Of a DNA stretch of 64,000 bases, positions 5,514 to 32,244 are shown in pieces. Both the position numbers and the translations under genes were made by a program. Positions within the stretch are counted from its first letter, which is position 1, and every line of letters begins with the position of its first letter. The notes below the pieces were generated by a model. It was not told where the DNA came from. It saw nothing but the letters and a program-made list of their open reading frames with translations, and searched no databases. Where the stretch lies: the NCBI RefSeq assembly GCF_029338295.1, contig NZ_CP119791.1, positions 186,001-250,000 on the forward strand. The letters run 5' to 3'. Source of the stretch: Haladaptatus sp. QDMS2 (GTDB lineage: Archaea; Halobacteriota; Halobacteria; Halobacteriales; Halococcaceae).

Positions 5514-7066
5514 GCGCCCTCCGCGAAAACTGGCGCATCGTCCTGTTGGTCATCTTCGTCGTGCTCTCTGGGGTGGCGCTGTTCGCGCCGACCGGGAGCG
5601 CAGACGACGGCGGCCAGGCCGGCACCGCAGACACGGGGCCGACGAACCTCAAGTACGGCCTCGAACTCTCTGGCGGGACGCGGATTCGCGCCCCGCTCGT
5701 CGGCATGACCGCAGAGGATGTCGACGTGACGCCCGACAACGATCGCGAGGTGGAAATCGCCGTCGCGAATCAGCTGAACATCTCGCGAACCGACGTTCGC
5801 GCCACGCCCCAGACCCGCACCGTTGAGGTGTTCACGGAGAACGTGACCCAAGCACAGTTCGCCCAGGCACTCCAGGCCGCAGGTCTCTCCGCGAGCGAGG
5901 AGAACATCCGCGACGGCGTCACCGACGAGACGCGCCAGACGGCTGTCTCTGTCCTCACGGAGAAAATCAACCGCATCGGCCTCTCTGGAGGGTCGGTCCA
6001 GCAGGTCCAGACCACCCAGGAGACGTTCATCCTCATCGAGGTGCCAAACCAGAATCGCACCGAGGTGTTGAACCTCATCGGTGACCGCGGGAAGGTCGAA
6101 ATCGTCGCCGAGTTCCCCACCGACGCGAACGGCACCACCGAGTATCGACAGGTGTCGATGCTGACGCAGGGTGACTTCGCCGAGATCGGCGCGCCACAGG
6201 CGGGCCAGGGCAACCAGCCGTCGTACGTCCCCGTGACGCTCACCGACGAAGCGGCGCAGAACTTCTCACAGGGGATGCAGAACTTCGGCTTCACCAGCCA
6301 GCAGGGCGTCCAGAGCTGCCGATACAGCGACACGCCTGACGACCCCGGCTACTGTCTCCACACCGTCGTTGACGGCGAAATCGTTTACTCGGCGTCGATG
6401 TCCACGGGCCTCGCGGGCACCATCGCGAACGGCGACTTCGTGAAGGACCCCGGCTTCCGGATGACGACGACGAACGCCTCCGACGCCCGCGCGCTGCAGG
6501 TCAACCTGCAGGCCGGCGCGCTCCCAACTTCCCTCGACATCGAGGGCGAGGGGACGACGTACTTCCTCGAACCGGCGCTCGCGTCTGAGTTCAAGCTGTT
6601 CAGCCTCATCACGGGCATCATCGCCGTGCTCGCCGTCGCCGGGATGACGTATCTGCGCTACGGCGAGGCGAAAATCGCCGCCCCGATGGTCGTGACCGCA
6701 CTCTCCGAGGTCGTCATCCTGCTCGGGTTCGCCGCGGCGGTCAACCTCGCGCTCGACCTCTCGCACATCGCGGGGCTCATCGCCGTCATCGGTACCGGGG
6801 TGGACGACCTGGTCATCATCGCAGACGAGATTAGCCAGTCAGGCGTGACGACGAGTCGCGTCTTCCGCGACCGCTTCCGCAAGGCGTTCTGGGTCATCGG
6901 CGCGGCCGCCGTGACCACCATCATCGCCATGAGTCCGCTCGCGGTGCTCAGCCTCGGCGACCTGCAAGGGTTCGCCATCATCACCATCGTCGGCGTGCTC
7001 ATCGGGGTGCTCGTCACCCGGCCGGCCTACGGTGACGTGCTCCGGAACCTGATGGACATCGACTGA
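5510..7066 (+). CDS. secD: Preprotein translocase subunit SecD
   Basis: Partner of SecF in the membrane translocase accessory complex. It is 518 residues, with one N-terminal helix (10-30), a large external P1 domain (YGLELSGGTRIRAP near 45) and five helices from about 365. The helices include the conserved AGLIAVIGTGVDDLVIIADE motif around 425-445. The order secF-secD with a 4-bp overlap is normal in archaea, the reverse of most bacteria. A T6 tract 12 bp after the stop probably ends transcription. Confidence 0.95.
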   Translation: MSALRENWRIVLLVIFVVLSGVALFAPTGSADDGGQAGTADTGPTNLKYGLELSGGTRIRAPLVGMTAEDVDVTPDNDREVEIAVANQLNISRTDVRATPQTRTVEVFTENVTQAQFAQALQAAGLSASEENIRDGVTDETRQTAVSVLTEKINRIGLSGGSVQQVQTTQETFILIEVPNQNRTEVLNLIGDRGKVEIVAEFPTDANGTTEYRQVSMLTQGDFAEIGAPQAGQGNQPSYVPVTLTDEAAQNFSQGMQNFGFTSQQGVQSCRYSDTPDDPGYCLHTVVDGEIVYSASMSTGLAGTIANGDFVKDPGFRMTTTNASDARALQVNLQAGALPTSLDIEGEGTTYFLEPALASEFKLFSLITGIIAVLAVAGMTYLRYGEAKIAAPMVVTALSEVVILLGFAAAVNLALDLSHIAGLIAVIGTGVDDLVIIADEISQSGVTTSRVFRDRFRKAFWVIGAAAVTTIIAMSPLAVLSLGDLQGFAIITIVGVLIGVLVTRPAYGDVLRNLMDID

Positions 7067-28431: not shown

Positions 28432-28980
28432 TCAGTCGCGCTCGTCGTACGCGGGCGGCTCGAACGCCGCGACAACTGCTTTTCCGATTTTCGTCTCACC
28501 GAGCTCTCGCCACGTCAGGTCCACCCGCGAGGTGGCGAGCGCGAGCGAGACGACGAGTCCGTAGCCGACGAACCCCGCGGCTGTGAGCGTCCCTGCGAGC
28601 GCCGTGGCGAGCAGGCTCGCCGCGAACGCTGTCGCCACCGCGATGCCGCCCAGGCGCAACGGCGCGCGCACGACGGCTTTGTGGGCGGCCTCGATGCCCG
28701 TCCGAAGTCCAGAGGACGCAACCGCTGGTGCGAGGCGCTCGGTCAGCCAGTCGAGCGCGGCGATAGCGGGCCCGACAGTCCACGTCTCGCGCAGGTCGAT
28801 GACGATAACTTCTGGGTCCGGCTCCGCGGTGAGCCAGCGATACAGGGACGACTTGCGGACCGTCTTCTCAATGCCTCGACCTGCGCGAGCGACGAGCGAG
28901 TCGTCCAAGGCGCGACCGGTTCGTGTGGCGACCCGAACCAATCGCGACTGCTCGCTCGCGACACGCAATCGTTCGGTCAT
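28432..28980 (-). CDS. Haloarchaeal membrane-associated protein, unknown function
   Basis: 182 residues from the ATG at 28978-28980. That start is preceded by a strong GGAGGAG ribosome-binding site 6 nt upstream, so I prefer it over the ATG at 29013. The order is a basic N-terminal part, an EPDPEVIVIDLRETWTVGP segment near 55-73, and two hydrophobic helices near 112-150 (IAVATAFAASLLATALAG, FVGYGLVVSLALATS). The layout suggests a peripheral signalling or shape protein, but I cannot name a family. It is convergent with glmS, with no gap. Confidence 0.65.
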   Translation of the reverse strand: MTERLRVASEQSRLVRVATRTGRALDDSLVARAGRGIEKTVRKSSLYRWLTAEPDPEVIVIDLRETWTVGPAIAALDWLTERLAPAVASSGLRTGIEAAHKAVVRAPLRLGGIAVATAFAASLLATALAGTLTAAGFVGYGLVVSLALATSRVDLTWRELGETKIGKAVVAAFEPPAYDERD

Positions 28981-29180
28981 CGAGTTCTCCTCCAGTAACG
29001 ATTCAGAATTCATGAATATTTGCCATATTGGGGTGTGTCCTGTTCGTGCGCTATGTCATCTTTACGCGGTCAAAAGAACTTTGGTGTCGCTTATCGAACC
29101 AATTCGTATGTGTCATTTGTTAGCGGAGGCAATCATGTTTATAGACTGATTTTTTTACATTAATTTAATGCTAGATATAT

Positions 29181-29200
29181 TAGAATACTTATATATTCTA
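29181..29200 (+). promoter_or_regulatory. Inverted repeat over the TATA box of the microprotein gene
   Basis: TAGAATA, six bases (CTTATA), TATTCTA: perfect 7-bp arms enclosing the likely TATA element about 32 nt before the ATG at 29223. The surrounding 60 bp are very AT-rich. A repressor bound here would block TBP. Confidence 0.5.
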
Positions 29201-29222
29201 GTCGCGCTATTAGAAGGTTGTA

Positions 29223-29357
29223 ATGTCCGAAAGCTCAATCAAAGCATACCTGGCAGAGAACCCAAAGATGACCGGCGCGCTGTTCATGCTGATGCTCCTG
29301 CTCAGCTCGGTTGGTAACGCGGCAGCGGGTGTCGCGGGCTCGGTTGCTGGCCCCTGA
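29223..29357 (+). CDS. 44-residue membrane microprotein (DUF7503-like) beside CHAT protease gene
   Basis: Short ORF starting MSESSIKAYLAENPKM. The polar, amphipathic N-terminus is followed by one hydrophobic helix (about residues 17-32, ALFMLMLLLSSVG) and a small-residue Ala/Gly tail ending in GP. I recall similar haloarchaeal 44-45 residue proteins annotated as DUF7503, often near CHAT-domain genes. It converges on the CHAT gene with a 9-bp gap. Function is unknown; it could be a membrane-active peptide or a protease substrate. The promoter has a TATA box inside an inverted repeat. Confidence 0.7.
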   Translation: MSESSIKAYLAENPKMTGALFMLMLLLSSVGNAAAGVAGSVAGP

Positions 29358-29366
29358 AAACGAAAG

Positions 29367-31442
29367 TTACAGTTCGCTGTGCGTGATGTCGCTGGACCAC
29401 CGAAGTTGACCGTCTATTCTAACCGGGAAATCCTCGAGCAAGAAGAGTTGCAAGAGCTCAGACCGGTGGACCTCGAACGGGTCGATTCGCCCAGAGCCGA
29501 GGAAGTACTGACCGTTCTCCTGAATGTATGGAACGACGAGACTTCCCATCCCACGGTCCGTCGTCGGGAAGGTCTTCATCGTGACCGTGTAGGTCTCATC
29601 GTCGACCCGCTCCAGGTCCCAGAGGAGTGGAATTCCACTCTCAGCCTGCGCAACTGCGAGACTCCCGTCACCCACGACAGCGTACTGGCCACCGACGATG
29701 CTCTCGCCTTTGGCGACTTCGAGTGCGGAGGCGAGCGGGAACCCGCCGTTGAGCAGGCGGGCGACCGTCCCACCGATCTTCACCGCGCCGCTGTTGATGA
29801 CGTCAGAGAGCGTGACGATACCGCCGATGGCTCCCTTCTCGATGAGCGCCATTCCTTGTTCGTAGGACGAACAGGCGTTGAGGAAGAAGGCGTCTACGCC
29901 CACCTCGTCGAGGGTGGTCACGTCGAGTTTACCGTCTACGCACTCGAAGCCCTCGGAATCGATGTGGCCGATGTAGTGGAGGAACTCCGTCGGCGTCTGG
30001 AGGACGGCTGCGAGTTCCTCGGTCGTGAGGTTGTGCTTGATTTCGATGTCGAACAGTAACTCAGAGCGAGAGCCGTAGACGCGGTCGACGATGTCCCGCT
30101 CTTCGTCCATTTGCGGGTCGTTACAGACGACGGTGATGTCGATATCGCCGTCTGAGAGGTCCCGCGCGAGGCGGTTGTGGAACGCCTGCGTGGTGGTCTT
30201 GCTCGCACCGAGCGGTGCGCCTTCGCCAATCCAGGCCTGTTCGAGCGACCTGGCTGTCTGTGGCTTTACGTACGACGACGGCGCGGCAGAGGCCGCGGTC
30301 CCGCTGCGCATGAAGTTACCGTCGCGCAGGAACTCGTCTACGAGCGCCATTTGCGCCGCGTCCTGTTCGACGCGCTCTGCCTGAGGTGTGCGGACGATTG
30401 CGAGGTCGTCGACGAGGAACGGGAGCGTCTCGATGCTCGTCGCTGAGAGCGAGACGTGCGAGGTGAGTTTCCACTCGGGCAAGAACGGGTCGAGCGTCTC
30501 GAACGGGATCGAAAGGTACGCTTCGAGTTGGACGGCGAGTGGCTGGTCGTACAACGCCGCGAAGTCGATATCGACGACTGACTCCACTTCGTGGCGCTCG
30601 TGGAGGTTCAGTTTGTAGAACCCCTCCGTGCGCGTGATGCAGTCGAGGAAGAACACGTGCTGGAGGAGCGCCTCCACCGTGTTCTCGAAGTCGAAGAGCG
30701 TGTCTCCGAGTGGGTACTCGAAGCCGGTGTCCGTGAGGATGCGCGCCGCTACGTCGGGGACGAGTTCAGCACCGAGGTAGTACGCCAGCGGTGCGGCCAC
30801 GAAGATGTAGCCGGGCTCGGGTGGAATTTCGATGGAGATGCCCGTGTCCGGACGGACGAGTCCCTCTGGAATGTGAAGTTCGTCGCCGAGTTCGACGAGT
30901 GGTGGGTGGCCGCGGAGCGTTGGGTACGAGCGTTCCGCGCTCGTCGTTTTGAGCGCAGAGCCGAACGCGGAGATGGCGGCCATCATGTCGAACGGGTCTT
31001 CGGTGGTGGTGATGGTCGCAGCGGGGTGCTTGTGGTGTGAGCGCGCGCCGACGAGCACCTCGGTCGGCTGGGCGAAGGAGATGTGGAGTTGTTGGGCGTC
31101 GCCGGTGATGGTGAGCGGACCGGTCGTGCGCAGGTAGATTTTCATCGGCGCGCACAGTTCGAGGCTGTAGTCGCCCGCGGGCAGGTCCTCGTTTGCGAAG
31201 TGTTCGGCTTCCGCGAGCATCTGGCCGGCTGCATCGCGGACGTATACCGGAATGACAGTCGGCAGGGTGACCTGTGTGGTCGTAATCGAGACGGCCTCGT
31301 CGACCGGGAACAGAAACTGCTCTGCGTCCGTCGCGCGCGGCGTGACTGGCGTATCCGTCAACAACGAATAGTGTCGCCGCTCGATGGTGTCTGAAATCTC
31401 CAGGCCCGTCCCGCCATCCGTTTTCCGATACGTTATGTACAC
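29367..31442 (-). CDS. CHAT-domain (caspase-like) cysteine protease
   Basis: 691 residues. The C-terminal CHAT peptidase domain spans about 420-620. It has the catalytic His in LHYIGHIDSEG (His493) and the catalytic Cys in FFLNACSSYEQG (Cys524), in the spacing typical of CHAT/separase-caspase clan CD. The N-terminal 400 residues are beta-rich and I do not recognise them; they may sense the trigger. There is no signal peptide, so it acts in the cytoplasm. The next gene upstream on the same strand is the RecA-like protein (115-bp spacer with its own TATA box). CHAT proteases in bacteria activate partner proteins by cleavage in immune or death pathways. Confidence 0.88.
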   Translation of the reverse strand: MYITYRKTDGGTGLEISDTIERRHYSLLTDTPVTPRATDAEQFLFPVDEAVSITTTQVTLPTVIPVYVRDAAGQMLAEAEHFANEDLPAGDYSLELCAPMKIYLRTTGPLTITGDAQQLHISFAQPTEVLVGARSHHKHPAATITTTEDPFDMMAAISAFGSALKTTSAERSYPTLRGHPPLVELGDELHIPEGLVRPDTGISIEIPPEPGYIFVAAPLAYYLGAELVPDVAARILTDTGFEYPLGDTLFDFENTVEALLQHVFFLDCITRTEGFYKLNLHERHEVESVVDIDFAALYDQPLAVQLEAYLSIPFETLDPFLPEWKLTSHVSLSATSIETLPFLVDDLAIVRTPQAERVEQDAAQMALVDEFLRDGNFMRSGTAASAAPSSYVKPQTARSLEQAWIGEGAPLGASKTTTQAFHNRLARDLSDGDIDITVVCNDPQMDEERDIVDRVYGSRSELLFDIEIKHNLTTEELAAVLQTPTEFLHYIGHIDSEGFECVDGKLDVTTLDEVGVDAFFLNACSSYEQGMALIEKGAIGGIVTLSDVINSGAVKIGGTVARLLNGGFPLASALEVAKGESIVGGQYAVVGDGSLAVAQAESGIPLLWDLERVDDETYTVTMKTFPTTDRGMGSLVVPYIQENGQYFLGSGRIDPFEVHRSELLQLFLLEDFPVRIDGQLRWSSDITHSEL

Positions 31443-31508
31443 GTGCGCTCACCTGTCCGATTGCCGGATAGTCCCACACTCCTGACAGTCGTTGTTACCA
31501 TACTGTTG

Positions 31509-31514
31509 TATAAA
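31509..31514 (-). promoter_or_regulatory. TATA box of the CHAT gene
   Basis: TTTATA on the minus strand, 67-72 nt before the CHAT start. It predicts a leader of about 40 nt, unlike the leaderless neighbours. Confidence 0.45.
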
Positions 31515-31557
31515 GGTAAAAGTGTATCTACTAACATAGAAACCACGAGAAGCCTCG

Positions 31558-32244
31558 CTACCCCTCCTCCACAGCATCGAGCGTTAGCCAATCTGTTGTC
31601 ACGTTTTCGTCCCGGAGATGCCACCGCTGTTGAAAGGTTCCGGCCCGATCGCGGAGTTCGATATGTGCGTCGAACAACTCGGTGTAGAGTTCCACCTCGG
31701 TCGGGTCGTCCGTCTGGAGGTAGGCGTGTCCGAGCGCCCGTGCGTGACGGACCCGCCAGCACAGGGCGTGGAGTGCGGCGAAGGTCGCTTTCCGGCCGTG
31801 GTACTCGACGAGGGGCGTGAGCGAGTCGATGCAGACGCGCAACTCTGCCGGTTCCGCACCCACTTCGAGGTCGGCGATTGCCTCGAAGGTGGCTGAGATG
31901 AGGTCTGCGAGGTCATCACTGTAGACGTACTGGTGGGTCCCGTCAGTAGTGTTCGCCGTCGCGGTTGCTCCTCGCAGGAACGTACAGTGTTCGATGATTC
32001 GTGTTTGTCCCGGGTCTGCTGCAACCGGCAGGCGAGCGTCGACGCTCTCTGCGGTGGCGTCGGTCAGGACGAACAATCGTCGCCGCGACAATCCCGGGTC
32101 CCCGAGCATCTGACGAGAGACAGCAGTAAAGGCAGCTCGAGGGACACTCCCAGTCACGAGAACCGTGCTTCCCGACTGTTTCAGTCGCGAGAGCGCCCGC
32201 CCGAACGCCAGTACGTCCGTCTCCGTTAGCGCACTGGGGTTCAT
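31558..32244 (-). CDS. RecA/Rad55-like protein lacking a P-loop (DUF7504-like)
   Basis: 228 residues laid out like a KaiC/Rad55 core. There is a first strand STVLVTGSV where Walker A should be but with no GK[S/T], a Walker-B-like strand RVCIDSLTPLVEYHG near 136-150, and then strands HAYLQTDD and AHIELRDRAG. It is probably a non-ATP-binding regulatory or scaffold protein. I recall haloarchaeal DUF7504 proteins beside CHAT genes. It is on the same strand as, and upstream of, the CHAT gene, so it may be its partner. Confidence 0.65.
   Translation of the reverse strand: MNPSALTETDVLAFGRALSRLKQSGSTVLVTGSVPRAAFTAVSRQMLGDPGLSRRRLFVLTDATAESVDARLPVAADPGQTRIIEHCTFLRGATATANTTDGTHQYVYSDDLADLISATFEAIADLEVGAEPAELRVCIDSLTPLVEYHGRKATFAALHALCWRVRHARALGHAYLQTDDPTEVELYTELFDAHIELRDRAGTFQQRWHLRDENVTTDWLTLDAVEEG

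Follow-up and report, generated by a model that had tools for sequence, protein, structure and literature searches.

The closest described systems to the locus analysed here are caspase-fold proteases that have a separate input and dedicated partners: SAVED-CHAT, a type III CRISPR protease, and the TPR-CHAT protease of Craspase. Separase and the gingipains share the clan-CD fold. Bacterial gasdermin pairs place a caspase-like protease beside a small or membrane-associated partner, and RRNPP receptor-propeptide quorum systems use a short precursor with a hydrophobic segment, whose variable C-terminal peptide changes in step with the product of a neighbouring gene. The present locus lies in a window of 64,000 nucleotides of chromosome from Haladaptatus sp. 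QDMS2 (contig NZ_CP119791.1, positions 186,001 to 250,000; all coordinates below refer to this window). It comprises the genes of a CHAT-type protease, of a convergently encoded microprotein (DUF7503) that usually ends in Gly-Pro (GP), and of an upstream KaiC-like protein (DUF7504). Apparent co-evolution between the GP end and protease residue T175 points to an undescribed protease-control module.

The protease was modelled with AlphaFold2 from 63 natural relatives. The model (mean predicted local distance difference test, pLDDT, 90.1; predicted template modelling score, pTM, 0.89) has a clear caspase fold, and its best structural matches were SAVED-CHAT (Z 19.0), gingipain RgpB (Z 17.6), separase (Z 17.3) and Craspase TPR-CHAT (Z about 14). 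Against the Pfam CHAT family (PF12770) the protein scored 14.4 bits (E 0.027), below the gathering cut-off of 24, and its classification therefore rests on fold and catalytic dyad and not on formal membership of the Pfam family. On the modelled fold and the dyad it is a clan-CD (CHAT type) caspase-fold enzyme, presumably with proteolytic activity. Residues 1-136 form a generic-looking beta-sandwich (best Z 8.5, no informative match) and residues 137-320 gave no useful structural match. The Protein Data Bank (PDB), searched by sequence with the protease profile, returned no match, and an NCBIfam scan of the module proteins added nothing useful.

The module resembles Craspase, SAVED-CHAT and the gasdermin pairs, which likewise combine a protease with a dedicated partner and a separate input, yet it showed none of their accessory parts. 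SAVED-CHAT and Craspase share its caspase-fold catalytic domain; unlike them, the haloarchaeal module has no SAVED or TPR domain and no Cas7-11 or CRISPR genes, carries a GP-tailed partner of 44 residues placed tail to tail, and is near-core in distribution. Specifically for Craspase, no gRAMP or CRISPR genes recurred beside the module in a census of neighbouring genes, and the N-terminal region of the protease is not TPR in the AlphaFold2 model. Compared with separase and the gingipains, the protease has another N-terminal architecture, no securin and no secretion features. The partner differs from those of the gasdermin pairs in being a single short helix plus a tail, in being convergent rather than operonic and in having a helix that is dispensable in some lineages; at 44 residues and in a different Pfam family, it is not a pore-former of gasdermin size.

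An earlier note on this DNA, made from the letters alone, had placed His493 and Cys524 in the protease and proposed their conservation in orthologues as a check; both are present, and both are invariant across all 63 relatives. In a wider set, the His/Cys dyad was kept in 147 of 158 proteases. It was retained in every protease that has a partner (119/119) versus 28 of the 39 that have none; among the 11 others, 10 had a changed dyad and one was gapped. The association between dyad and partner has a P value of 6e-8, a figure that ignores kinship among the proteases, and the pattern suggests that catalysis matters to the microprotein partner. Paralogs without the dyad, probably pseudo-proteases, were found at nine loci (L175, L194, L196-L199, L207, L210 and L213), and none of these had a convergent GP-tailed partner.

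The microprotein matched DUF7503 in Pfam with 68.9 bits (cut-off 27). Across 108 aligned DUF7503 proteins, an [HN]P[RK]M motif, a helix with invariant small residues and an AxA stretch were all conserved, and they were followed by a tail of seven hypervariable residues and then, in most lineages, by the terminal Gly-Pro. All 111 distinct DUF7503 proteins analysed have Ala at -1 and a small residue at -3 before a hypervariable tail of 7-10 residues. Since 16 codon pairs encode the terminal Gly-Pro, it is selected at the protein level, and a DNA-level signal is ruled out by the same count. Chance was excluded with control genes: a convergent open reading frame (ORF) ending in GP followed 51 of 78 protease genes versus 1 of 573 other genes, and a second control set gave 5 of 458. 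The C-terminal tail looks like the functional element of the microprotein: besides its free codon choice, it recurs on proteins that otherwise differ, also where the membrane helix is lost, and is tandemly repeated in one genus. Phage records searched for the microprotein gave no match.

Some partners lack the terminal GP (for example those ending GGTIS), and each column of the protease alignment was scored by whether its substitutions fall on the branches where the partner lost GP. In the first run T175, which sits in an otherwise near-invariant motif (ERSxPTLRGHPP), ranked 1st of 682 columns: it changed on five of the six branches with GP losses, with 10 changes on 212 branches in total (P=4e-7), and the second-ranked column reached only P=1e-3. 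A prediction was then recorded before 20 new loci were fetched, of which two were excluded (one already in the set, one with a disrupted tail). The prediction held at 15 of the 18 loci scored (one-sided P 0.008): non-GP partners went with a non-Thr residue in 8 of 10 cases and GP partners with Thr in 7 of 8. With all 125 proteases, residue 175 changed on 6 of 7 branches where GP changed (P=1.1e-7; rank 1 of 683 columns, unchanged under both tie-break rules), and one inferred reversion to Thr coincided with a regained GP. The last residues of the microprotein, usually Gly-Pro, appear to co-evolve with this one residue of the protease.

The distribution was sampled in 292 haloarchaeal genomes. 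DUF7503 was present in 250 of them and the protease in 271; among the 20 CHAT-less genomes listed, none had DUF7503 (P 1e-19). Flanks were read for 58 DUF7503 copies, and every one of them faces a CHAT gene: 57 in clean convergence, the ORF call of the other (L252) overlapping CHAT by 88 bp. At most loci the two stop codons are no more than about 20 bp apart or share an overlap of 4 bp. The convergent arrangement is far beyond chance, and the microprotein is obligately paired with the protease. The earlier note's suggestion that its three families belong together stands, with adjacency repeated across genera and families; its expectation of variable islands fails, because the counts in the 292 genomes make the module near-core and not an island gene. 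This distribution differs from that of defence systems and, together with a PADLOC-DB scan of the module that found no known anti-phage defence match, rules out a defence island or a known defence system. Plasmids also carry DUF7503-protease pairs, some genomes (Haladaptatus among them) hold several, and the pair duplicates as a unit. The genome analysed here holds a second pair, whose protease is 52% identical, and a third protease without a partner. A phylum-wide search found the protease outside the class in only four genomes of one family, all without the microprotein.

Loci without a match to the DUF7503 model often carry instead a different small protein that shares its ending. In one genus the substitute is a helix-less tandem-repeat protein with 4-14 copies of ADGNxGGISGP (loci L060, L064, L067, L070, L074, L202 and L204; the repeat partner of L204 has a 39-bp unit x13 with 83% match). 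Another group has soluble convergent ORFs that end KRVSTYGGP or similar; at L098, L101 and L152 these ORFs overlap codons of CHAT and could be chance occurrences. One genome with many protease paralogs (G124) has eight that face their own-tailed single-helix microprotein, with the GP terminal or a few residues before the end. True absence of DUF7503 wherever the model misses it was rejected, because a GP-tailed ORF of divergent, repeat or soluble type is present at many of these loci. At L085 the absence is false, since a run of N near 5579-5680 masks exactly the DUF7503 helix beside CHAT. A quick tree of the 158 proteases gathers the DUF7503 partners in one large clade and, with a midpoint root, places GP-tailed partners on either side of its deepest split.

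The 39 of 158 proteases that really lack a recognisable partner include Haladaptatus copies, paralogs whose neighbour is a DUF5821/TbsP-like gene and remote relatives from outside the class. One paralog lineage, made up of the third copy of the present genome and its relatives, is mostly without DUF7503 (L017:4322-6403 on the minus strand, L098, L101, L153-L155, L215 and L216), and the gene often found beside it resembles what we take to be a DUF5821/TbsP regulator. Two genomes without DUF7503, G048 (L176, L184) and G072 (L175, L186), show a CHAT gene whose reading frame is broken up, which looks like a joint loss of protease and partner.

The protein upstream of the protease matched DUF7504 in Pfam (E 4.7e-43, 148.2 bits, cut-off 27). 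DUF7504 lies directly upstream of the protease in 46 of 80 loci from public genomes, which makes 47 linked copies with that of the window, and it was the sole gene that recurred beside the protease across many families in the neighbour census. Its profile matches KaiC alone in the PDB (best E 5e-4); unlike the KaiC/Rad55 ATPases, all 47 CHAT-linked copies lack the Walker A sequence GK[ST]. A C-terminal RWHL-type motif of DUF7504 is missing from the unlinked, P-loop-like paralogs that were aligned. In Haladaptatus and Natrialba a HalOD1 output domain is fused to DUF7504, and the present genome has 11 DUF7504 copies. DUF7504 is a looser partner of the module than DUF7503 and is likely to be its input. 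At nine loci (Haladaptatus L112-L123) a small gene for a helix-turn-helix-like regulator lies divergently upstream of HalOD1-DUF7504, as the second gene upstream of CHAT.

We consider it somewhat probable that the CHAT protease recognises the GP tail of its own microprotein via the segment around T175, with DUF7504 as input. The clan-CD protease would recognise the C-terminal tail, usually with a Gly-Pro end, of a dedicated and convergently encoded microprotein, which would be anchored in the membrane by its conserved single helix in most lineages. The ERSxPTLRGHPP segment would take part in this recognition, presumably through physical binding. The microprotein would be the dedicated client of the protease, its tail positioning, restraining or feeding the active site, and DUF7504, without a nucleotide-binding loop, may relay an upstream signal. 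The usual form of the microprotein is probably at the membrane because the helix and the N-terminal segment are so conserved, and the tail would be the part that is read, since it is all that remains in some lineages. The client may be cut, may inhibit or may act as a ligand; its role, the signal and the outcome we infer rather than read from the sequence.

Several points weigh against this account. Nine exceptions to the T175 rule (five GP partners with Ser, four non-GP partners with Thr) make it strong, not absolute. The hold-out is not fully independent because the new loci share ancestry with the old ones, and the trees behind the co-variation were quick ones. No recognisable partner was found for 39 of the 158 CHATs. 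The evidence on the topology of the microprotein points two ways: its charge distribution favours a tail outside the cell, whereas no signal peptide is evident in the protease, and the co-variation speaks for a tail within reach of the protease.

Peptide signalling, by analogy with the RRNPP pairs, we regard as unlikely: the microprotein would be a Sec-exported propeptide that is cut at AxA, and its last 7-10 residues, released as a peptide ending in GP, would re-enter cells as a processed signal or ligand and gate the CHAT protein via the T175 motif. Each paralog would read its own peptide, and the system might be the class-wide source of the unexplained haloarchaeal caspase-like activity. 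The residues at -1 and -3 before the variable tail in all 111 proteins, the co-variation of that tail with the protease, the many paralogous pairs with differing tails within one genome and the existence of tandem-repeat precursors are all consistent with this. However, the N-terminal segment and the helix are conserved far beyond the needs of a signal peptide, the repeat and soluble forms of the partner lack a signal-like segment, and the neighbour census showed no importer in the module. In RRNPP systems the partner is a TPR receptor rather than a protease. If true, this reading would amount to peptide signalling in archaea, with a separate variable peptide for every paralog of the protease.

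Variants that lack any membrane segment and keep the tail alone argue against the idea of the earlier note, a membrane effector activated by cleavage. The protease would cut the microprotein, which would then damage or remodel the membrane. Gasdermin systems are a precedent; the membrane helix is conserved with invariant small residues, and the dyad is always kept when a partner is present. Near-universal presence is, however, unusual for a suicide effector and the module matched no defence system; we hold this idea to be rather improbable.

It is quite improbable, in our estimate, that the microprotein is a dedicated inhibitor whose tail occupies the protease and holds it off until DUF7504 signals, with repeats raising the dose. 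Tail-only and tandem-repeat partners do occur, the microprotein has a separate promoter and transcription unit, and the partner is lost where the dyad is lost; but the dyad is kept in most of the partnerless CHATs (28/39), so such an inhibitor is not always needed. A purely positional link, in which the convergent genes regulate each other at the RNA level without protein contact, is very improbable: the transcripts probably overlap because at most loci the stops are separated by 0-20 bp or have a 4-bp overlap, but GP is conserved as protein with free codon choice and co-varies with T175, and the two genes stay together both when duplicated and on plasmids.

A literature search, with most subscription papers outside its scope, returned no paper about a CHAT protease of haloarchaea or about either DUF7503 or DUF7504; the term 'CHAT domain' did not turn up together with Haloferax volcanii, nor with haloarchaea and protease. 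H. volcanii has strong caspase-like activity, with cleavage of LEVD, VEID and IETD blocked by zVAD-FMK; its discoverers did not name the gene, described the protein as still to be identified and mentioned that the proteasome, too, might be responsible (PMC3615174). Both DUF7503 and DUF7504 were found in H. volcanii, and the protease would be a natural candidate for this activity. Relatives of the protease are mostly labelled 'hypothetical protein' in public plasmid annotation. A near-universal haloarchaeal gene pair, mostly carrying that label, can now be read as a caspase-fold protease and its obligate microprotein, with evidence of co-evolving recognition. The genes, residues and tail peptides are now testable in a genetically tractable group, and the module is of interest for the early history of caspase-like regulation.

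The coordinates of the features are collected in the table below.

Table. Features of the protease-microprotein locus of Haladaptatus sp. QDMS2, in window coordinates.
Feature	Position	Strand	Basis
Microprotein gene, 44 aa, DUF7503	29223..29357	+	Pfam PF24335 E 2.7e-19; conservation across whole class
Hydrophobic helix of microprotein, residues 16-35, AxA-like stretch at its end	29268..29327	+	Alignment and hydrophobicity
Microprotein C-terminal tail GVAGSVAGP, residues 36-44; terminal Gly-Pro at 29349-29354	29328..29354	+	Hypervariable tail, conserved GP
CHAT-type caspase-fold protease gene, 691 aa	29367..31442	-	AlphaFold2 model, structural matches, 63 relatives
Catalytic Cys524 codon of protease	29871..29873	-	Invariant, 63 relatives
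Catalytic His493 codon of protease	29964..29966	-	Invariant, 63 relatives
Protease motif ERSYPTLRGHPP, residues 170-181, T175 at 30918-30920; candidate tail-recognition segment	30900..30935	-	T175 co-variation with partner's terminal GP
DUF7504, KaiC-like protein without Walker A, 228 aa	31558..32244	-	Pfam PF24336; no P-loop in 47/47 linked copies; KaiC profile match
AT-rich promoter region of microprotein, 7-bp inverted repeat	29181..29200	+	Repeat conserved within genus only

The anatomy given in the earlier note agrees with the ORF coordinates: a microprotein of 44 residues converges on the CHAT gene with 9 bp between the two stop codons, and the RecA-like protein without Walker A, here DUF7504, lies directly upstream on the protease strand at a distance of 115 bp. 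The 7-bp inverted repeat described at the microprotein promoter is likewise present (TAGAATA-6-TATTCTA). As a regulatory element of the module it was rejected, because its core is conserved within the genus only (two genomes of the same genus retain just a 6-bp core) and because some 7-bp repeat was found in 17 of 114 upstream regions. A 193-aa protein with hydrophobic stretches and no family match above cut-off, encoded at 28432-29013 on the minus strand, adjoins the microprotein promoter.

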